DNA of 64,000 nt from Cobetia marina (GTDB lineage: Bacteria; Pseudomonadota; Gammaproteobacteria; Pseudomonadales; Halomonadaceae), in NCBI RefSeq assembly GCF_001720485.1, contig NZ_CP017114.1:1426001-1490000 (forward strand). The letters run 5' to 3'. Below are positions 50,845 to 63,035 of this stretch, in pieces. Each line of letters begins with the position of its first letter. Position 1 is the stretch's first letter. Both the position numbers and the translations under genes were made by a program. The notes under the pieces are model-generated. The model was given only the letters and a program-made list of their open reading frames with translations, was not told where the DNA came from and made no database searches.

Positions 50845-51540
50845 TCAGGCGTGTCGGGTGGCGATCAGGTGATCGGCCAGGGTCATCAACTCATCGGCCA
50901 CATGGTCCGGTGTCGGGACATTGCTTGCCGGCAGCACGGCATTGTGCGGACGCGTCAGGAGTGCACCCTGCATGCCGGCTGCCTGGGCGCCGATGGTATC
51001 CCAGACGTGACAGGCGACCATGCACATGTCATCGAGCTTGACCTCGAGTTGCTCGGCCACGTGCTGGTAGGTCGCGGGCGCCGGCTTGAACTGTTCCACG
51101 GCTCCGACACTGAAGTGCTGCTCGAAGGCCTCGCTGATGCCGGCCTTTTCCAACGGTGTCGGTGAGGCACCGGCGGGAGAGTTGGTCAGGGTCACCAGAC
51201 GGAAACCGGCCTGCTTCAAGCGCTCAAGCGCCGGTGCGACGTCGGGGTGAGCCGGCATCTCGGCCATGCGCGACTTGAGCTCATCGATATCGCTGTCCTT
51301 GAGCGTGACCTGATGGATATCGGCGACCATCTTCAGGACACCCACGCCAAGCTCACCGAAGGGGGTATAGCGATGCGCAAGCGTCATGGTCTGGGAATAC
51401 AGCACCAGTTGCGCGAACCATTCACGCAGCACGCCTTCATCGCCGAAGACGCGCCCGAACAGCGGTGAAAGGGTGGTGATGTCGAGCAGGGTCTCGTTGA
51501 CGTCGAATACCAGAACGGAGACGGGCTTTGGGGTGGACAT
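50845..51540 (-). CDS. Haloacid dehalogenase, type II
   Basis: 231-residue HAD-fold hydrolase predicted to dehalogenate short 2-haloalkanoates such as L-2-haloacids. VLVFDVNETLLDITTLSPLFGRVFGDEGVLREWFAQLVLY supplies nucleophile Asp13 and the family's DVNETL and substrate-loop residues. VTLTNSPAGASPTPLEKAGI (motif II Thr/Ser-Asn), FKPAPATYQHVAEQL (motif III Lys) and CMVACHVWDTIGAQAAGMQGALL (motif IV) follow. The cluster ends with a His-rich tail. A few members of this group act on other substrates. The ATG at 51540 has AGGAG 5 bases upstream. Confidence 0.88.
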   Translation of the reverse strand: MSTPKPVSVLVFDVNETLLDITTLSPLFGRVFGDEGVLREWFAQLVLYSQTMTLAHRYTPFGELGVGVLKMVADIHQVTLKDSDIDELKSRMAEMPAHPDVAPALERLKQAGFRLVTLTNSPAGASPTPLEKAGISEAFEQHFSVGAVEQFKPAPATYQHVAEQLEVKLDDMCMVACHVWDTIGAQAAGMQGALLTRPHNAVLPASNVPTPDHVADELMTLADHLIATRHA

Positions 51541-51831
51541 GAACACTCCTGGACAGACTGGGTGTGGGGTGTGGGCCTGGGGAGGCAGTACAGCGGATGT
51601 CGGTGAAAGGAGTCTCCCTGCATTGCTGGCCCGGTAGCGCCCATCGATTGCCTACCAGCTTACGCAAATTTGAATGATTGCTCAACAATCGACAGGAGGC
51701 GACCGTGATGGGGCCTGGCCATGACGAAAAAATCCCCTTGCCCCTTCTGATGACAGGGGGCAAGGGGCGCTGGTTCGATGCACGCATGCGTCGGTCATCG
51801 ACTCATGCGTGCATCGCTGCCTGGGGCTTGA

Positions 51832-52350
51832 TCAGTCGTTCTGATAGGCACCGGCGGCATAGGTCATTTCATAGCTGTGGCTGTAGACCTCGAGGATGTT
51901 GCCGAACGGGTCTTCCATGTAGACCATGCGGAACGGCTTCTCGCCCGGGAAGTACTCGCGTACCGGCATGCGCTGCTTGCCGCCGGCGGCCACGATGCGT
52001 TCGGCCAGCCCTTCGACGTCCGGGTCCTGAACGCAGAAGTGGAAGATGCCGGTCTTCCAGTACTCGAAGTTGTTCTCCGGCGTCTCGTGGTTCGGGAATT
52101 CGAAGATCTCGACCCCGATACGATCACCGGTGGACAGGTGGGCGATGCGGAAGCTGCCCCAACCCGGACCGAAGACATCGCTGCACATCACGCCGATGGC
52201 GGAGTCGTCTTCGGTGATGGTGGTCGGCTCCATCACCACGTACCACCCCAGTACCTCGGTATAGAACTTGACGGCGGCTTCCACATCACCGACGGACAGG
52301 CCGATGTGGGAGAAGGTGCGCGGATACGGTGTGTGCTTTTCGCTGCTCAT
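51832..52350 (-). CDS. VOC family (glyoxalase/dioxygenase-like) protein
   Basis: 172-residue vicinal-oxygen-chelate protein with two beta-alpha-beta3 modules: FSHIGLSVGDVEAAVKFYTEVLGWYVV (His as first metal ligand) and IFHFCVQDPDVEGLAERIVAAGG (second His), ending MVYMEDPFGNILEVYSHSYE (Glu ligand). It has the four-ligand pattern of an active metal enzyme, but VOC families include lyases, dioxygenases and resistance proteins, so the reaction is open. It is divergent from the LysR regulator at 52572, which may control it. Confidence 0.85.
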   Translation of the reverse strand: MSSEKHTPYPRTFSHIGLSVGDVEAAVKFYTEVLGWYVVMEPTTITEDDSAIGVMCSDVFGPGWGSFRIAHLSTGDRIGVEIFEFPNHETPENNFEYWKTGIFHFCVQDPDVEGLAERIVAAGGKQRMPVREYFPGEKPFRMVYMEDPFGNILEVYSHSYEMTYAAGAYQND

Positions 52351-53473: not shown

Positions 53474-54442
53474 TCAGGCGTCAGGCAATGTCAGGCCTGA
53501 GAATTCGCGCATCAACCAGCGGGTGATGGGCTGGATCACGGCGCTGTTGGGATGGCGGACACTCATGCGATAGCCATGACGGTCACGCGAGATATGCGGC
53601 GTCAGGGCGATCAGCGAGCCGTTGTCGAGCAGGTCCTGAATGACGTGACTCCAGCCCAGCGCGACTCCCTGATGGTTGACGGCGGCGTTCAGCGTCAGCG
53701 GGAAGTTGTTGAAGGGAAAGGCCTTGTCGAGACGCGGTACCGGCAGTCCCGCATGACGACACCAGGTGGCCCAGTCCAGCCAGCGGCTATCGCGCATGTC
53801 CAGATGCAGCAGCGTGATGCGCGACAGCGCCTCGGCATCCAACCCCTTCTCCAGCCCATGACGCCGCGCGTAATCCGGGGAGCAGACAGGAAAGGCGCGC
53901 TCCGCGACCACCAGCGTATCGCGATGATCGCCCGTCAGCGGCGGGCCGAAGCGGATCGCGATATCGGCCTGCTGCATCTGCGGGTCTTCATCGCGATCGA
54001 TCGGCAGCAGCGTGAAGTGACACTCCGGAAAGGCCTGCTCCAACCGCTCCAGCCGCGGGCGCAGCCAGACGTGGGCGAAACCGGCACCCGCGGCGATGGT
54101 GATGCGCGGTGTCGGCTTGTGCACCTTGCGACGTGCTTCCGTGACGGCGCTGCAGACCTGGCCAAGTCCGCCTGCCAGTTCGGTATGGAAGGTCTCGCCG
54201 TAGTGGTTGAGGATCAGCCTGCCGCCCTGGCGATCGAACAGCGGATGGCCCAGGTGCTCCTCCAGCGCGCGGATGCGCTGGGAGATGGTGGGCTGGGTGG
54301 TATCCAGCTCATTGGCCGCAGCCGTCATCGAGCCCAGGCGAACCGTCACGTCAAAGGCGACCAGCCCGCGCAGGGAGGGCAGGTCATCCAGAGGGCTGGC
54401 GGTATCGTCTGGCGCAGGGGAGCGTGTCTTTCGGGCCGGCAC
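53474..54442 (-). CDS. LysR family transcriptional regulator (GcvA-like)
   Basis: 322 residues with a ~22-residue charged leader before LPSLRGLVAFDVTVRLGSMTAAANELDTTQPTISQRIRALEEHLGHPLFDRQGGRL. The HTH wording and the C-terminal NFPLTLNAAVNHQGVALGWSHVIQDLLDNGSLIAL are typical of the GcvA-like LysR branch. Its target is not obvious: the neighbour upstream is a GFA family gene transcribed in the same direction, 235 bases away. The direct repeat at 54619-54657 is in that gap. Confidence 0.92.
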   Translation of the reverse strand: MPARKTRSPAPDDTASPLDDLPSLRGLVAFDVTVRLGSMTAAANELDTTQPTISQRIRALEEHLGHPLFDRQGGRLILNHYGETFHTELAGGLGQVCSAVTEARRKVHKPTPRITIAAGAGFAHVWLRPRLERLEQAFPECHFTLLPIDRDEDPQMQQADIAIRFGPPLTGDHRDTLVVAERAFPVCSPDYARRHGLEKGLDAEALSRITLLHLDMRDSRWLDWATWCRHAGLPVPRLDKAFPFNNFPLTLNAAVNHQGVALGWSHVIQDLLDNGSLIALTPHISRDRHGYRMSVRHPNSAVIQPITRWLMREFSGLTLPDA

Positions 54443-54676: not shown

Positions 54677-55153
54677 TTACTGAGTGCCGCGCTCGGCAAT
54701 TCGCGCATGCCAGGCCGCGATGCTCTCGTCGGGATACTCGGCGTGATGGGCATCACGCGCCTCGTGCGCGACTTCCACCCAGTTGGCCTTGCTGTCGAGC
54801 ATGATGTGGACATGCTCCGGTGGCACGGGCAGCGGGGTGTCGATCGCCCCCGCCTGCGGGTGGATCAGTTCTGGCCAGCGGGCATCGTAGAGCCACAGTG
54901 CACTGCCGCAGTGCTTGCAGAAATGACGTTCCGCCGGGCTTTCGACCCCGTCGATCACCGCGTGATAGATCGAGATGTGCTCGCGGCCTTCCACCTTGAG
55001 GGTGCCGGCGTCGCCCGCCAGGTTGATCGCATGGCCGCCGCTGCCTGCCGTCTTGCGACAGATCGAGCAGTAGCAGCGCTGGTACGGGTAGGGATGCGGC
55101 GACTCAAGCTGGAATGTGACGGCCTTGCAGTGGCACGAACCTTCAAGCTGCAT
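54677..55153 (-). CDS. GFA family (glutathione-dependent formaldehyde-activating-like) protein
   Basis: 158 residues from the ATG at 55153. The Cys pattern of the GFA zinc fold is complete: GSCHCKAVTF, RCYCSICRKTAGSGG and HFCKHCGSALWLYD. Family members are often annotated as glutathione-dependent formaldehyde-activating enzymes or as CENP-V-like, but activity has been questioned for many. Here the protein lacks any formaldehyde-pathway neighbour. The frame upstream of 55153 has no family residues. AGGAGGA just before the ATG supports the start. Confidence 0.88.
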   Translation of the reverse strand: MQLEGSCHCKAVTFQLESPHPYPYQRCYCSICRKTAGSGGHAINLAGDAGTLKVEGREHISIYHAVIDGVESPAERHFCKHCGSALWLYDARWPELIHPQAGAIDTPLPVPPEHVHIMLDSKANWVEVAHEARDAHHAEYPDESIAAWHARIAERGTQ

Positions 55154-55277
55154 GAGAAATCCTCCTTGTGATGCCTGGGCGAGGGCGCTGGCGAGGCTGG
55201 GGCCGAGAGGGTGACTCAATCCAGAGGCAGGGGGATCGCTCTGTCACTTGTCGCTCTGCCTGCCCGGCAGGAGATTC

Positions 55278-55604
55278 TCACATCGCCAGCGCATAGACAT
55301 AGACCTCGAGCTCACGATTGTCGTCGAGAATGACGGTGGTGACGCGACGCTGATAGATGGGGCCCTCGAAGTCATCGAGAGCGTCCCAATGCTCGGGCAG
55401 CTGCGGTGAGGAAAAGACGTGGCCGCGTATCACCTGCCCCGTGTTGTCGACCACCAGCCCGGGGAAGTTGTGCTCGGTACCCTGATCGCTGTTCTCGAGT
55501 CGGCCGCGCAGATAGGCCGGGCGCCATTCGCCATCGATGTTGGCGATGACATGTTCGTTGAGTCCGCCTGGCCCCAGCGGGCCATAGATGAAGAGGTGTT
55601 CCAT
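55278..55604 (-). CDS. Gamma-glutamylcyclotransferase (AIG2-like) family protein
   Basis: 108 residues. MEHLFIYGPLGPGGLNEHVI is the YGxLxxG substrate-binding loop of the GGCT fold, although the family's usual YGTL is YGPL here. AYLRGRLEN, VRGHVFSSPQLPEHWDALDDFEGPIYQRRVTTVIL (with a catalytic Glu in the D-x-F/Y-E-G motif) and VYVYAL complete the small barrel. Family enzymes cleave gamma-glutamyl or glutathione-type peptides to 5-oxoproline; substrate here is unknown. Confidence 0.88.
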   Translation of the reverse strand: MEHLFIYGPLGPGGLNEHVIANIDGEWRPAYLRGRLENSDQGTEHNFPGLVVDNTGQVIRGHVFSSPQLPEHWDALDDFEGPIYQRRVTTVILDDNRELEVYVYALAM

Positions 55605-55865: not shown

Positions 55866-56465
55866 TCAGACGCGGCTGTCGAAACCGCCGGCGGGCTCTT
55901 CGCCGATCACGTCCGGATCGAAGGGCTTGCGTGCGAAGACGCGACGCAGAGCCGGCTCGAAGTGCTCCAGCGGCGGGGTCGGATAGTCGGGGTCGAAGGC
56001 CGCCTGATCATAACGCTCGCAGAAATCCACACACTTCTGATACCAGGGGTGATCCTTGTAGATCTCGCGCTCGTTGCGGTCTTCGCCGTAGAAGTGACCG
56101 TAGTAGAACTTCTGGAACAGTCCATGGTGGTGGATGATCCAGGTGACCTCGGCACGCACATACGGGCGAATGATGGCGGCGGCCAGCTGCGAGTGATTGT
56201 AGGGCGCCAGCTCGTCACCCAGGTCATGCAGGAGGGTCGCGACGACGAGATCATCATCGCCACCGTCGGCTTCGGCACGTGCCGCTGACTGCAGGGAGTG
56301 CTCCAGACGGCTGACCTTGTAGCCGCTCAGACCATCATCGAGCTTGCGCAGGGCAAGCTTGAGGCGCTCCACCAGCCCTTCATTGAACTGATCCTCAAGA
56401 CGCTCGAGCAACGCATAGTCTTCTGCGGTGCCGTCCTTCATCTGGGTGAATGAAACCTGATCCAT
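55866..56465 (-). CDS. HD-domain protein, putative diiron oxygenase (TmpB/PhnZ-like)
   Basis: 199 residues. The ligand set of HD-type diiron oxygenases appears to be complete: His56 (RLEHSLQSA), His80-Asp81 (LLHDLGDE), His91 (YNHSQLAA), a His at 112-114 (IIHHHG) and Asp153 (RYDQAAFDPD). The His56-to-His80 spacing of 24 equals that of PhnZ as I recall it. A Tyr/Glu pair I associate with PhnZ substrate binding has no clear match: those positions are Leu46 and Tyr49. The ATG shares one base with the stop of the upstream dioxygenase (TAATG), so the two are coupled. By this context it would cleave the hydroxylated product of that enzyme. A simple phosphohydrolase is the alternative. Confidence 0.8.
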   Translation of the reverse strand: MDQVSFTQMKDGTAEDYALLERLEDQFNEGLVERLKLALRKLDDGLSGYKVSRLEHSLQSAARAEADGGDDDLVVATLLHDLGDELAPYNHSQLAAAIIRPYVRAEVTWIIHHHGLFQKFYYGHFYGEDRNEREIYKDHPWYQKCVDFCERYDQAAFDPDYPTPPLEHFEPALRRVFARKPFDPDVIGEEPAGGFDSRV

Positions 56466-57634
56466 TACGCCATTTCCTCACGGTTTTCTTGTTGTGCCTG
56501 CTGCTGACGCTGACGCATCAGGGTCGTGGCGAAGCGCTCACGCGGGCCGTCGCTGTCCATGTAGCAGCCCTGCAGGTGACGATGCCCCTCATTGGTGTCG
56601 AACGCCGTACGGCCATGCAGCACGCGGGTGTTGTCGAACATCATCAGCTCACCGGACTCGAGCTGGAAGCGAATCTCGTTGGCCGGGTCCTGGAACAGCT
56701 GTCCAAGACGCTGACGGGCCTGATGGTAGCGGCGCGTGTTCTCCAGCGACATGTGCGGCAGATGATCAAGACGCGGGCTGTAGTTGACGCCGATCGGCTC
56801 ACCATCGGCGCTCTCACGGATCACGCAGCGACGGGTGGTCAGCTCGGTACCGGCATCCAGGAAGCGGAAGCCCACCGGGGTGGTGCGCAGCAGTTCATAG
56901 CCTTCCGGCATCTCGGCCTTGAGCTGCTTGAGCGCATTCAGGCTGTCGACCAGCGTGGACAGGCCGCCAGTGGTCTCGTTGACCAGGCAATGCAGCATCT
57001 GGATGCCCGGCACCGGATCACGATACGGATTATCGGTGTGCGGTCCAAGTGCCACGCTGCGATAGGCCAGATCGTTGCCGGTCGGGCGCGAATACACCTC
57101 GAAGTAGCTGCCGAAGTTGGTGTCCTTCACGTAACCGAAGTGACCGGCCACTTCCAGAATGCGCTCCGGATCGGTCGGCACGTTCTGCACGATGATGTAG
57201 CCAAAGCGCAGATAGGCCTCCAGTGCCTTCTGGAAGTCCTCATTGTTGCCCATCTTCTCCCAGTCGACGCGCTGCGCCTGCTGATCGATGCCCGCATCCC
57301 AGCTCTCGGCCTTGGGGAACGGCGTGATGCCCTGCAGCTCATGCGCCAGCAGGGGGAGGTCATACACCTCGCAATGCCCGTCACTGAAAGTGAATTCCAC
57401 GTGCGTCTCATCGACCGGGCGCGCCGCGGTCAACTCGAGATTGACGTCGATGGCATGCGAATCGAACAGACGCTGGGTGGTGACTTCATCGAGCTGCTCC
57501 GGGTCCTGGGTGCGCTCGCGCAGCCACAGCGGGCTGACCGGCTCGAGGCCTTCAGCGGTGATCAGGTTCAGTGACAGCGGCGACTCGCTCAGGCTCAGCG
57601 GCAGCGCGTCGGACAGGGCATTGGTCAGGGACAT
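56465..57634 (-). CDS. Fe(II)/2-oxoglutarate dioxygenase, gamma-butyrobetaine hydroxylase/TmpA-like
   Basis: 389 residues. The N-terminal domain (~residues 1-95, with WLRERTQDPEQLDE and VEFTFSDGH) matches the GBBH-like N domain, but the zinc-binding Cys residues seen in animal enzymes are not evident. The TauD-type catalytic domain has LGPHTDNPYRDPVPGIQMLHCL (iron ligands His199 and Asp201) and NTRVLHGRTAF (His340), then HRHLQGCYMD (2-oxoglutarate Arg). Family members hydroxylate gamma-butyrobetaine to carnitine; TmpA hydroxylates 2-(trimethylammonio)ethylphosphonate. Coupling to an HD-domain gene favours the TmpA reading. Carnitine genes are absent here. Confidence 0.88.
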   Translation of the reverse strand: MSLTNALSDALPLSLSESPLSLNLITAEGLEPVSPLWLRERTQDPEQLDEVTTQRLFDSHAIDVNLELTAARPVDETHVEFTFSDGHCEVYDLPLLAHELQGITPFPKAESWDAGIDQQAQRVDWEKMGNNEDFQKALEAYLRFGYIIVQNVPTDPERILEVAGHFGYVKDTNFGSYFEVYSRPTGNDLAYRSVALGPHTDNPYRDPVPGIQMLHCLVNETTGGLSTLVDSLNALKQLKAEMPEGYELLRTTPVGFRFLDAGTELTTRRCVIRESADGEPIGVNYSPRLDHLPHMSLENTRRYHQARQRLGQLFQDPANEIRFQLESGELMMFDNTRVLHGRTAFDTNEGHRHLQGCYMDSDGPRERFATTLMRQRQQQAQQENREEMA

Positions 57635-58344: not shown

Positions 58345-60126
58345 ATGAGCATCGATATATTGATCGTCTTGGTATATTTTGCATTTCTAATGTTGCTGGG
58401 GTGGCTCTATCGCTCCGCGACTCGTTCGACAAACGATTATTTCCGAGGTGGCGGTCGCATGCCGTGGTGGATGGTCGGCGCCACGGCATTCATGATGTCG
58501 CTGAGTGCCATGACCTTCACCGGACTGATGGGCAAGGCGCTGACGGGCGGGATCTCCATCGTCATCGTCTTCGTGGCCAATGCCACGGGGTATTTCATCA
58601 ACTACCTCTTCTTTGCCGCCAAGGCTCGGCAGATGCGAGTGGTCAGCCCCATCCAGGGGATTCGCCTGCGCTTCGGTCGCGTCAACGAGCAGGTCTTCAC
58701 CTGGGCGAATGTGCCGCTCAACGTGATGCAGGCTGCCATCTGGCTCAATGGCCTCTCTGTCTTCGTCAGTGCCGTGCTGGATATCCCCATCGAGCAGACC
58801 GTGGCAGGGGCTGGCTTCGTTGTCCTGTTCATGTCCCTGGTCGGTGGCAGCTGGGCGGTCATCGCCTCCGATTTTCTGCAGATGGTGCTATTGACGGTGA
58901 TGACCTTCGTCGCGGCGGTGGTGGCGGTCGTCAAGTCGGGCGGCGTGGAGAATCTGATGAGCCGAGGCCTGCCGGAGCATGCTTTCCTCGGGGATGGGTA
59001 CAGTTATGGATATCTGTTCGTCGGCTGGTTCATCTGCATCTTCGTGAAACAGTTCTTCAGTACCAACAACATGATCGATTCCTATCGCTATGTGGCCGCC
59101 AAGGACACGCGTCATGCGCGCAAGGCAGCACTGCTTGCCTGTGGCCTGACGCTCTTCGGCACCAGTATCTGGTTTCTTCCCGCGTGGTATGTGGCTGGGA
59201 ATTACCCTGACCCGGCCAGCTGGGGGCTGGCAGATCTCGGCAGCAATCAGGCGGACGCGGCCTATTACATCTTCGTCAAGCGCGAGCTTCCCCTGGGCAT
59301 GGTGGGACTGATGCTCTCGGCGATGTTTGCGGCCACCATGTCGTCCATGGACTCCGCCCTCAATCGCAATGCCGGGATTCTGGTGAAGAGTGTGTATGAG
59401 CCATATTTCTGCAAGGACGGTGATGAACGCAAGCTGATGCTGGCAGGCAAGATATTCACGGCGATGTTCGGGTTGATCGTGATCGGCGCGGGACTGTTCT
59501 TGACCACGCTGCAGGAGTTCGGGCTGTTCGATGCCATGATGATCGTCGGTACTCTGGTCGGGTTCCCATTGCTGATCCCCGCCATTCTCTGCTTCTTCGT
59601 ACGCAAGACGCCTGACTGGGCCGGCTGGGGCACCATCTTGGTCGGTATGTGCGTGTCGGCCATCATCGCCTTCGGTGTCACGCCGGAGCTTGTGCAGTCC
59701 GTGATGGGCATGTCCGAGCCGATGGAGGCACGCGAGTTCGCCGAACTCAAGTCAGTCACCCTCGGGGTAGGGGCACACATGTTGATCACGTTGCCGTTCT
59801 TCCTGCTCACCACACTCTTCTACAAGGTGCCCTCGGCTGAACGTGCCGCGGAGATCGCCCGGTTCTTCGACAACGTGGATACCCCGGTGGTGTCCGAGGA
59901 TACTGCCGAGACACTCGAGCTGGATCGTCAGCCCTACCAGCTGTTGGGGAAATTGCTGATGGCCTCAGCCTTGGGTGTCCTGCTGCTGGTGCTGGTGCCC
60001 AACGAGATGACGGGACGTCTCATCTTTGTCAGCATCGCCGCGATTCTAGGCATCCTGGGCTTCTTCATGAATCGGTTCGGTCAGGAAAAGGTACAAAAAG
60101 CAGCATATCGGCCTTCTCATTCGTAA
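58345..60126 (+). CDS. Sodium:solute symporter family transporter (SSS)
   Basis: 593-residue LeuT-fold transporter with 13-14 hydrophobic helices. MSIDILIVLVYFAFLMLLGWLYRSATRSTNDYFRGGGRMPWWMVGATAFMMSLSAMTFTG is the usual SSS opening (Na+ site residues in the STFTG-like stretch). AFLGDGYSYGYLFVGWFICIFVKQFFSTNNMIDSYRYVAAKD and MFAATMSSMDSALNRNAGILVKSVYEP hold the second Na+ site (SMDS). Family members import sugars, uronates, amino acids and vitamins. Followed by an acyltransferase and a heparinase-type lyase on the same strand, an acidic saccharide import is likely. Confidence 0.9.
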   Translation: MSIDILIVLVYFAFLMLLGWLYRSATRSTNDYFRGGGRMPWWMVGATAFMMSLSAMTFTGLMGKALTGGISIVIVFVANATGYFINYLFFAAKARQMRVVSPIQGIRLRFGRVNEQVFTWANVPLNVMQAAIWLNGLSVFVSAVLDIPIEQTVAGAGFVVLFMSLVGGSWAVIASDFLQMVLLTVMTFVAAVVAVVKSGGVENLMSRGLPEHAFLGDGYSYGYLFVGWFICIFVKQFFSTNNMIDSYRYVAAKDTRHARKAALLACGLTLFGTSIWFLPAWYVAGNYPDPASWGLADLGSNQADAAYYIFVKRELPLGMVGLMLSAMFAATMSSMDSALNRNAGILVKSVYEPYFCKDGDERKLMLAGKIFTAMFGLIVIGAGLFLTTLQEFGLFDAMMIVGTLVGFPLLIPAILCFFVRKTPDWAGWGTILVGMCVSAIIAFGVTPELVQSVMGMSEPMEAREFAELKSVTLGVGAHMLITLPFFLLTTLFYKVPSAERAAEIARFFDNVDTPVVSEDTAETLELDRQPYQLLGKLLMASALGVLLLVLVPNEMTGRLIFVSIAAILGILGFFMNRFGQEKVQKAAYRPSHS

Positions 60127-60833: not shown

Positions 60834-63035
60834 ATGCTGCTGTTGACACGAGATCACGATTTTCAGGTCTTCCTCTCGCCCTGCGAGTCACTGCCGGCCT
60901 GTACCAACCCGCCCGCTTTTACCTGGCCAATGGCCACGACCGACAGCGTCTACACCTTTGAGCTGGTGAGGACGGAATCGGGAGACTCACTTTGTCGTGA
61001 GCAGGTCACCTCCCCGGTGCTTCTTGAGGATATCCTCGAGGTCGGGGGATATCGGTGGCGTGTCACTGACGAGATGGGGGAAAGCTCGCAGTGGGTCGAG
61101 TTCACCCTGACCGGCCGAGAGCCTGAGTATCTCCCGCCACGTGCAGAAGTCTTGTTTGCCGCCTGCGAAGCACAGACGCAATGGATGCTGTATCTCGATG
61201 CCGACCTTCCACTGGTGAAGCAGGCCGCTGCCGAGGATATTCCCCGTATGCGGGCGACAGCCAGAGTCGCGCTGGATAACGGGTTGCCGGAATATCCTGA
61301 CCACCATCGCCGGGGGCGTGAACGTTACAAGCGTCTGGCCATCCATCGGATACGCGAATGGGTGGATCGTGACCTGATGGCACTGTGCCTGCTCTATCGC
61401 ATCGAGGGGGATGTCGCGGCAGGCGAGGCTGCCGTCGAGCGATTGCTCACGTTGGCGGAATGGAGCACGGATGGCCCTGCCACCCTGGAGAGACCTTGCC
61501 AGTGGGGTGATGAGGTCGGGTTGTCTCTGGCGCGAAATGTCTTCCTGGCCTATCACTGGCTGACGCCGCTGCTGGCGGATGGAGAGCGTTTCTTTGCCCG
61601 AGCGCTGCTGGTACGTGTCGCCGAGCAGATGATGCATCGTCTCGAGCAGGATGACTTCGTGCAATATCCCGGTCATTCACATACGTCGCGGTTGCCAGCC
61701 TATCTCGGTGTGGCAGCGCTGGTGCTGCACAAGGAACACGACCGCACCAGGTGCACGCAGTGGTTGCAGTGTGCGCTCGACCTCTATCGAGGCGTATTGC
61801 CGTTCTATGGCAGTGCGGATGGCGGATGGGCAGAGGGTGCCTTCTATTCGTCTTCCTATACCAAGTGGTTTCATCCGTTCTTTCTTGCGGTGGAGCGGTT
61901 ATCCGGCTTCTCGTTCTATCAGCATCCCTTCTACGTCAACTATCTGACGTACTGCCGCGACTTCGTCGTGACGGACAATGACCTGCATCCCTTCGGAGAT
62001 GGTTTCTGGTGTTATGCCGATGGCAAAGAGTGGCCAGGGTTCTTCGCTCAGAATCCGCTGCGGATCTACGCCCAGCGTTTTGGCAGCCGGGACGATATGC
62101 ATAAGAGCCGTCAGCTGGAAGAGTCGATCGAGATCCATGCTCTGCATCTGCTGGATGTCATCCCGACGCTGGATCAGATACGTCTTGCACACGAACGTAG
62201 TGAGCAGCAGACAGGATCTCGGCATAAGTCTCCTGATGACTCCCGTCATGCTTTCTACCCGCATGCCGGGCATGGTCTCGATCGTTTCGGCAAGCTGGAG
62301 CTGCGCTACCGCTGCAGCCCCTTCGGCAACAGCTCTCACCGCCATGGTGATCAAGGCAATGTGAGTTTCATCGATACCGGTCGCTCCGTTTTATGTCCCA
62401 CAGGAAGTTACGGTTATGCTTTCGGCAGCCAGCATCACCGTGAATGGACGCGCACCTCACTTGCCCACAACGTGCCATTGATCGATGGAGTGGCGCAGTC
62501 TCTGGATGATCCAGCAGCGATAGCTCGCGTTATCTCGAGTACCCGAACGGGTGGAATGGTGGCTCATCGGCTGGACTTGAGCGCTGCCTATACAGGTGAT
62601 ATCCGCTATGTACGCACCATCGTGTTATTGGAAGGTGTCGGCAGCGTGATATTTGATGATCTCTCAAGTCAGCAGCCATTTACTGTGCAGTGGCAGCTGC
62701 ATTCTTCACTGAAAGCTGGCCTTCAATCCGACGAGCAGGGCAAAGCAGTAACACTTTGCGAAGGCCAGCGTGACTACCGACTGCGCCTGGAAAGCCACCC
62801 GGAACTGACTCCTGAAGTGACTCATGGCTACGCTGAAGAGCGAGAAGAGCACATCATCATCGACAGCGATGCAAACCCCGATGTCGCTCACATGACGTGG
62901 ACAATTCTTGCCCAGCGACAGCATTGCATCCTTGCCAGCTGTGTCAGTCAGGAGGTCATTCTGAAGCAGGAGGAGGGAAGGTTGCGTATCGTCTGGGAGG
63001 GTAAGGAGATGGTGGTGGAATTGATTGATTATTAA
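60834..63035 (+). CDS. Heparinase II/III-type polysaccharide lyase (DUF4962-like)
   Basis: 733 residues; starts 12 bases after the acyltransferase. An N-terminal beta module (residues 1-110; CTNPPAFTWPMATTDSVYTFELV) resembles DUF4962-type domains. The (alpha/alpha) toroid then spans about 110-450 (RGRERYKRLAIHRIREWVDRDLMALCLLYRIEGD and WGDEVGLSLARNVFLAYHWLTPLL, then QYPGHSHTSRLPAYLGVAALVLHKEHDRT). The C-terminal heparinase-like beta sandwich has PFGNSSHRHGDQGNVSFIDTGRSVLCPTGSYGYAFGSQHHREWTRTSLAHNVPLIDG. No signal peptide is visible, so it likely acts on imported oligosaccharides. Substrates of relatives include alginate and glycosaminoglycan oligomers. Confidence 0.83.
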   Translation: MLLLTRDHDFQVFLSPCESLPACTNPPAFTWPMATTDSVYTFELVRTESGDSLCREQVTSPVLLEDILEVGGYRWRVTDEMGESSQWVEFTLTGREPEYLPPRAEVLFAACEAQTQWMLYLDADLPLVKQAAAEDIPRMRATARVALDNGLPEYPDHHRRGRERYKRLAIHRIREWVDRDLMALCLLYRIEGDVAAGEAAVERLLTLAEWSTDGPATLERPCQWGDEVGLSLARNVFLAYHWLTPLLADGERFFARALLVRVAEQMMHRLEQDDFVQYPGHSHTSRLPAYLGVAALVLHKEHDRTRCTQWLQCALDLYRGVLPFYGSADGGWAEGAFYSSSYTKWFHPFFLAVERLSGFSFYQHPFYVNYLTYCRDFVVTDNDLHPFGDGFWCYADGKEWPGFFAQNPLRIYAQRFGSRDDMHKSRQLEESIEIHALHLLDVIPTLDQIRLAHERSEQQTGSRHKSPDDSRHAFYPHAGHGLDRFGKLELRYRCSPFGNSSHRHGDQGNVSFIDTGRSVLCPTGSYGYAFGSQHHREWTRTSLAHNVPLIDGVAQSLDDPAAIARVISSTRTGGMVAHRLDLSAAYTGDIRYVRTIVLLEGVGSVIFDDLSSQQPFTVQWQLHSSLKAGLQSDEQGKAVTLCEGQRDYRLRLESHPELTPEVTHGYAEEREEHIIIDSDANPDVAHMTWTILAQRQHCILASCVSQEVILKQEEGRLRIVWEGKEMVVELIDY

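Follow-up and report, generated by a model that had tools for sequence, protein, structure and literature searches.

Two described tandem systems are close to the gene pair treated here. TmpA and TmpB of Leisingera caerulea (PDB entries 6NPA-6NPD) are a GBBH-like Fe/2-oxoglutarate (2OG) hydroxylase and a six-ligand HD protein encoded in a two-gene operon; in the second system, PhnY*/PhnZ, the HD protein PhnZ likewise stands in tandem with a 2OG hydroxylase. The diiron site of PhnZ and TmpB is mixed-valent, as summarized in a 2020 review that lists MIOX, PhnZ and TmpB as the HD-domain oxygenases (PMC8177086); a later review extends the list with GmPhnZ and a fusion protein, PhoF, and those listed in the two reviews other than MIOX act on phosphonates (PMC8177086, PMC10574752). 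The pair in question lies in a 64,000-nucleotide stretch of the Cobetia marina genome (NZ_CP017114.1, positions 1,426,001 to 1,490,000 of the forward strand; hereafter the window), and comprises an Fe(II)/2OG hydroxylase (OX) and an HD-domain protein (HD). The original prediction, which took the two for a TmpA/TmpB-like partnership overlapping by one base, was right about the overlap: base 56465 belongs to both the OX stop and the HD start (TAATG, minus strand). From sequence comparison, the pair is a separate, widespread branch beside TmpAB, and we consider that there is about an even chance that it forms a two-step oxidative catabolic module acting on a trimethylammonium ('betaine-type') acid. 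No description of such a pair was found in titles and abstract openings among the matches listed, most subscription journals being outside the search.

The HD protein matches PF01966 (25.1 bits; Pfam gathering threshold 22), and its H...HD...H...H...D ligand set is complete, as originally claimed (H56, H80-D81, H91, H114 and D153). In alignment A2 the first five ligands are found in 55/55 rows and D153 in 54/55. Our comparison set of 52 HD rows includes the window protein and near-copies, but not two weak matches, L019 and L020, which have a GExxT loop of their own and 56 residues between the last His and Asp ligands; across it the six metal ligands are invariant together with R34, R53 (54/55 in A2), W109, F117, Q118, F148, F157 and D158. 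For the single HD sequence the nearest PDB structures are PhnZ and TmpB, and a profile search gave the same two (4.6e-12 and 9.3e-9, respectively). Pfam MIOX was matched by 23 of 55 HD-group members at E 0.01, the window HD itself scoring 19.1, below the gathering threshold of 25. HD is a putative oxygenase of the MIOX/PhnZ/TmpB kind, with a presumed diiron state.

Despite these likenesses, HD differs from TmpB and PhnZ at two places. When compared with ten TmpB proteins above their cut-off (L079-L088), the YxxE columns hold Tyr and Glu in all ten (as YLGE) and in none of the 52 HD rows, so that the Tyr/Glu pair of PhnZ, which the original prediction had described as lacking in HD, is indeed absent; residue 49 is Tyr or Phe in every row (52/52, and 55/55 in A2), with Arg53 after it. 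In addition, the stretch from the last His to the last Asp ligand is 38 residues long in the HD group (39 in one row; 38 in 55/55 A2 rows), 18 fewer than the 56 residues seen in 10/10 TmpB. The HVAAKRY...LQGGPM stretch is missing from the window HD, AAKRY being found in 0/52 HD rows versus 10/10 TmpB, and Gln118 takes the place of its Lys (55/55 in A2). PhnZ has the same HD family and ligand set but carries YIGE and the long His-Asp stretch, of which the window HD has neither; we take its phosphonate-binding residues to be Lys108, Ser126 and Arg158. Its partner PhnY* is of the PhyH kind, unlike the window OX. The family scores are low, with 37.8 bits against TmpB (NCBIfam NF049941, cut-off 300) and 45.5 bits against the NCBIfam phosphonate HD family (cut-off 214.6). 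In a quick tree, with support from the Shimodaira-Hasegawa-like approximate likelihood-ratio test (SH-aLRT) only, a branch with support 100 separates the window HD and 43 other rows (44 together) from TmpB, PhnZ and two YxxE-type rows. MIOX resembles the window HD in being an HD diiron C-C cleaving oxygenase without YxxE, but has no tandem 2OG hydroxylase (PMC8177086).

The OX protein is a TauD-family member (156.9 bits; Pfam gathering threshold 27), with GBBH-like_N at 22.6 bits, slightly below the Pfam threshold of 22.8; its predicted iron ligands are H199, D201 and H340, and its predicted 2OG-binding Arg is R352. The best NCBIfam match is TmpA (NF049936) at 346.1 bits, which is nevertheless below the cut-off of 400, and the scores for gamma-butyrobetaine hydroxylase (BBOX; TIGR02409, 244.3 bits, cut-off 414.75) and trimethyllysine hydroxylase (TMLH; TIGR02410, 180.8 bits, cut-off 268.3) are also below theirs. 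Similarly, the closest PDB entry is TmpA 6npb (8.1e-58), followed by BBOX (4.5e-31). A quick tree was built from 24 rows of the window type, 12 of a second type, four of a SAR11 type and 12 of TmpA, plus GBBH-like rows (SH-aLRT only; human BBOX and five others drew long-branch warnings). The three OX types group together (SH-aLRT 95), away from the GBBH-like rows, and TmpA is their sister (SH-aLRT 80); a branch with support 100 sets off the 12 TmpA rows, and the window OX lies outside them. A check proposed with the original prediction, whether OX would group with carnitine-pathway hydroxylases, thus has an answer: in this quick tree it is nearer TmpA than those sampled (support 80), and a true carnitine-pathway hydroxylase was rejected on tree and scores.

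Residues of the presumed substrate pocket also set this oxygenase apart. Asp188 of OX aligns with Asn191 of human BBOX and Asp231 of TMLH. Asp occupies this position in all 45 rows from the three OX types, counting the window protein and four rows without a called neighbouring HD gene, versus 0/12 TmpA and 0/17 GBBH-like rows; all 12 TmpA rows, which include the TmpA-like third gene of a Halomonas urmiana locus (L110), have Asn. PMC7764450 treats TMLH Asp231 as the homologue of BBOX Asn191 and as the likely binding site for the alpha-ammonium group of trimethyllysine, and describes both D231 and N334 of TMLH as mattering for the substrate. The latter residue, equated with BBOX N292 by our own offset and not from PMC7764450, is replaced by Ser286 in the window OX; Ser is found here in 26/26 window-type rows and Asn in 12/12 TmpA rows. 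The OX therefore has Asp/Ser where TmpA has Asn/Asn, and shares with TMLH and BBOX the superfamily, and with TMLH the Asp, but not the second Asn. The aromatic cage is kept in the window type (Phe, Phe, and Tyr in most rows) and altered in the second type (Trp, Ala, mostly Met).

Table 1. The OX-HD pair, its distinguishing residues and its probable regulator, in coordinates of the window.
Feature	Position	Strand	Basis
OX, Fe(II)/2-oxoglutarate hydroxylase, 389 aa	56465..57634	-	TauD-family match
HD, HD-domain putative diiron oxygenase, 199 aa	55866..56465	-	HD-domain match and ligand set
HD residues 46-53 (LSGYKVSR), in the place of the TmpB/PhnZ YxxE loop	56307..56330	-	Alignment
OX Asp188 codon, a residue setting this oxygenase type apart	57071..57073	-	Alignment
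LysR-type regulator, probable regulator of the pair	53474..54442	-	Relatives adjoin an OX-HD pair in 13 loci

To see how far the pair extends, GTDB contigs were scanned, giving at least 565 HD relatives among at least 593 pattern hits; 15 plasmid records carry an HD relative. Counts given below out of 80 loci are for the best 80 of these at least 565 relatives, which come from Halomonas, Alteromonas, Marinomonas, Pelagibacteraceae (SAR11), roseobacter-type bacteria, Chloroflexi metagenome-assembled genomes and others, with gene calls from a purpose-written script that missed or strand-flipped some genes in G+C-rich loci. The script recognized HD in 78 of these loci. Of the 78, 24 have a same-type OX directly upstream on the same strand (gaps of -14 to +91 bases), five a PhyH-type oxygenase, one a class II aldolase and 17 another gene; 29 have no nearby same-strand upstream gene and 2 are at a contig edge. 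Since the pair recurs across relatives, the association of OX with HD is more than chance.

The Cobetia marina genome itself contains a second OX-HD pair (3898469-3900183; HD 42% and OX 33% identical to the window pair), near which basic amino acid ATP-binding cassette (ABC)-type genes are found, and two further OX. The window type was found in 5/6 searched genomes of the genus. Among genomes of the order, 65/293 have an HD scoring at least 100 bits, and TmpB exceeds its cut-off in 12/299 genomes of the phylum; the HD group is thus apparently the commoner of the two, with the caveat that the samples differ. In Cobetia marina no TmpB was above the cut-off, the best score being 28.6 bits. Behind a window-type pair (346.3 and 44.2 bits) in Halomonas urmiana (L110:6867-11305) come a TmpA (565.1 bits, cut-off 400) and a TmpB-like protein that has YLGE and the long stretch (263.5 bits, cut-off 300); a LysR-like reading frame on the other strand lies between the two pairs. 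Near OX genes not linked to HD, sugar/inositol dehydrogenases are seen in L216, and histidinol-phosphatase-like and peptide ABC-type genes in L217.

Genes of carnitine or betaine metabolism adjoin the pair in part of the relatives. In the seven SAR11 loci with the pair, an acetoacetate-CoA ligase gene precedes it in 7/7 and an aldehyde dehydrogenase gene in 6/7, and CdhA-, BKACE- and GBBH-like genes are found on the other strand in 6/7. CdhA- and BKACE-like genes occur in 10 of the 80 loci, cluster names such as CdhA-like being based on BLAST clustering with annotated members. In L105 (from genome G170) the genes around a window-type pair include choline/betaine ABC-like genes, a BKACE-like gene and a class II aldolase, besides a GBBH-like OX (375.8 bits against a cut-off of 414.75), a CdhA-like gene (320.1 against 414) and a GhrA-like reductase (216.4 against 403); all of them except the class II aldolase score below the NCBIfam cut-offs. 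In L115 a BCCT-family transporter gene lies downstream. Among the annotated neighbours no phosphonate family reached its cut-off. An island of Arctic SAR11 contains two BBOX, carnitine dehydrogenase, BKACE, aldehyde dehydrogenase and class II aldolase genes; 'HD domain' is not a term in the main text of that paper, and one of the two BBOX may be of the OX type described here (PMC12421898). In L099 and L100 the neighbours of the HD gene are genes for RACo, a pterin-binding protein and serine dehydratase, and L100 also has an OX-like gene; this context recalls corrinoid glycine betaine demethylation as described in PMC12478193.

The same link is seen at the level of whole genomes. Of the 293 genomes of the order, 65 have HD with a score of at least 100 bits (a further 14 with weaker scores being dropped) and 35 have CdhA with at least 280 bits; both are found in 20, versus 7.8 expected (p 1.5e-6, ancestry uncorrected); counted by genus, 14 are shared, of 35 with HD and 20 with CdhA among 119 (p 4.3e-5, ancestry uncorrected). 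Both CdhA and BKACE are present in 10/14 named genomes with a window-type pair (drawn from 19 window-type loci, five on short contigs being omitted), as well as in Cobetia marina (CdhA 435.6 bits, cut-off 414). The carnitine-metabolism link holds for the family; butyrobetaine need not be the product everywhere, since some pair-bearing genomes have no CdhA or BKACE.

Because HD has lost both YxxE and the stretch typical of the phosphonate enzymes, and because of the carnitine context, cleavage of a C-C bond in a betaine-type acid is the best reading of the pair; reaction, substrate and products are all inferred from sequence. The OX would hydroxylate a carbon of a trimethylammonium acid, HD would then cleave, with O2, the bond adjoining the newly formed carbinol, C-C and not C-P, and the product would be a shorter betaine entering butyrobetaine, carnitine or glycine-betaine metabolism. 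Thus, of the original suggestion of organophosphonate or betaine oxidation, the betaine-type substrate survives, in line with the carnitine and betaine neighbours, whereas the organophosphonate is not supported: both proteins score below the family cut-offs, YxxE and 18 residues are gone, and no annotated neighbour reached the cut-off of a phosphonate family. In the most specific version of the module that we favour, trimethyllysine (or a close analogue) would be hydroxylated at C3 by OX and cut between C2 and C3 by HD, giving gamma-butyrobetaine and, from the rest of the molecule, glyoxylate and ammonia, in place of the two eukaryotic steps catalysed by an aldolase and an aldehyde dehydrogenase. 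Trimethyllysine is favoured as substrate because of Asp188 and because butyrobetaine enters the neighbouring pathway. Such a conversion of trimethyllysine (the algal 'laminine') to gamma-butyrobetaine by two oxygenases, in SAR11, roseobacter-type bacteria and halophiles, is a tentative proposal to which we give well under an even chance.

Several observations weigh against a betaine-type module. In the pocket, Ser286 replaces the Asn (BBOX N292/TMLH N334) that is important for the substrate in TMLH, and in the window the carnitine genes do not adjoin the pair. CdhA is present in only 2/5 pair-bearing genomes of the order, and four of the 14 named pair genomes (three Alteromonas, one Marinomonas) have neither CdhA nor BKACE; furthermore, the bit thresholds behind the co-occurrence were chosen after viewing the lists. 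Of 20 genomes without an OX adjoining HD, several of them incomplete, 10 have no OX match and 8 have only weaker, unclassified matches; the other 2 have a same-type OX elsewhere (classed by its residues), which counts in favour of the module. Finally, the neighbourhood of L109 resembles sugar-acid metabolism, and agmatinase-like genes are found near some HD genes without this OX, so that other HD members may have other substrates.

The nearest competitor of the trimethyllysine version is itself a version of the betaine-type module, and draws on the same even chance: an alpha-oxidation of omega-trimethylammonio acids, a carboxylate mirror of TmpAB, in which OX would hydroxylate the carbon by the carboxylate and HD would remove CO2. 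This would shorten the acid by one carbon, from delta-valerobetaine to butyrobetaine or from beta-alanine betaine to glycine betaine. It is the nearest chemical analogue of TmpB chemistry, and it fits the PhyH-type oxygenase directly upstream of HD in five of the 80 loci, the 2-hydroxyacid dehydrogenase gene in L105 and the TmpA-TmpB-type pair adjoining the window-type pair in L110. The aminotransferase-like and 2-oxo-acid decarboxylase-like genes of the second-type operon could make valerobetaine from trimethyllysine, and glycine betaine as product would explain the pair-bearing genomes without CdhA. On the other hand, the acidic Asp188 at the BBOX Asn191 site suits an ammonium group over a carboxylate, as reasoned from the TMLH residues described in PMC7764450. 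We regard alpha-oxidation as possible, and give it about half of that even chance, the same share as the trimethyllysine version.

It is improbable that guanidino or other cationic, arginine-derived acids are the substrates of at least part of the family and the betaine link is incidental. The second-type operon has basic amino acid ABC-type genes and a thiamine diphosphate (ThDP) decarboxylase gene that scores 798.9 bits (cut-off 500) for the 5-guanidino-2-oxopentanoate decarboxylase subfamily, and the altered cage of the second-type OX points the same way; however, this operon also contains a GbdR-like regulator and a choline-type binding protein, both below cut-offs. Agmatinase-like genes occur in six loci (L140, L145, L154, L147, L097 and L175; one gene scored, the rest assigned by clustering) and adjoin HD in three, and the agmatinase-linked HD genes without a TmpA-like partner are perhaps a guanidino-acid branch. 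Window-type OX, in contrast, keeps its aromatic cage, and no guanidino-type neighbours were seen beside window-type pairs in the listed neighbourhoods.

Equally doubtful is a true TmpAB, oxidizing 2-(trimethylammonio)ethylphosphonate to glycine betaine and phosphate. The two-gene architecture is alike, the best NCBIfam and PDB matches of OX are TmpA, and a second-type OX (L050:7392-8555, plus strand) even exceeds the TmpA cut-off (448.7 bits against 400). Of the partnership originally proposed, this architecture of 2OG hydroxylase and HD protein stands but membership does not, as both window proteins score below their cut-offs, HD has no YxxE, no AAKRY with its Lys and only 38 residues between the last ligands, and OX has neither the Asn191 nor the Asn292 of all 12 TmpA rows; moreover, Halomonas urmiana has a TmpA-TmpB-type pair beside its window-type pair. 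That HD is a phosphohydrolase or other partner without oxygenase activity, OX alone doing the chemistry, would suit the absent YxxE and the weak scores to HD oxygenase families, but is hard to credit: the most similar solved structures, PhnZ and TmpB, are those of oxygenases, the six-ligand set is complete, and in relatives the HD gene is directly preceded by genes for O2-dependent hydroxylases from two families (TmpA-like in 24 and PhyH in 5 of 80 loci).

Around the pair, the LysR-type regulator of the window is 54% identical to the LysR adjoining the pair in L038 and L109, and 34-46% identical to that in 11 further loci; because its closest relatives adjoin OX-HD in these 13 loci, it probably regulates the window pair, from which two other genes (54677-55219 and 55278-55604) separate it. 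Farther along on the minus strand are a glyoxalase-family protein (51832-52350; TIGR03645, 324.9 bits, cut-off 262.05) and a type II haloacid dehalogenase (50845-51546; 173.8 bits, cut-off 125.4). Two upstream genes divergent from the pair, those of an SSS symporter (58345-60126) and of a large protein (60834-63035), were rejected as linked; neither was seen beside the pair in the listed neighbourhoods of relatives, where no dedicated search for them was made. A mobile origin was likewise set aside, the pair having no megablast match in the phage collection.

Taken together, these comparisons have consequences for annotation and for marine biology. Annotation as TmpA may over-count phosphonate users and degraders, because the OX of L050 passes the TmpA cut-off while its HD partner scores 40.9 bits for TmpB (cut-off 300). 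The HD proteins described here would add a further group of HD oxygenases; they occur in SAR11, and for part of them the link is to quaternary-ammonium metabolism and not to phosphorus. If the proposed reaction is true, they would make up a new class of HD oxygenase that cleaves C-C bonds, and the pair would be a missing entry into marine carnitine and betaine catabolism. The fate of algal betaines and trimethyllysine becomes testable with two small proteins.
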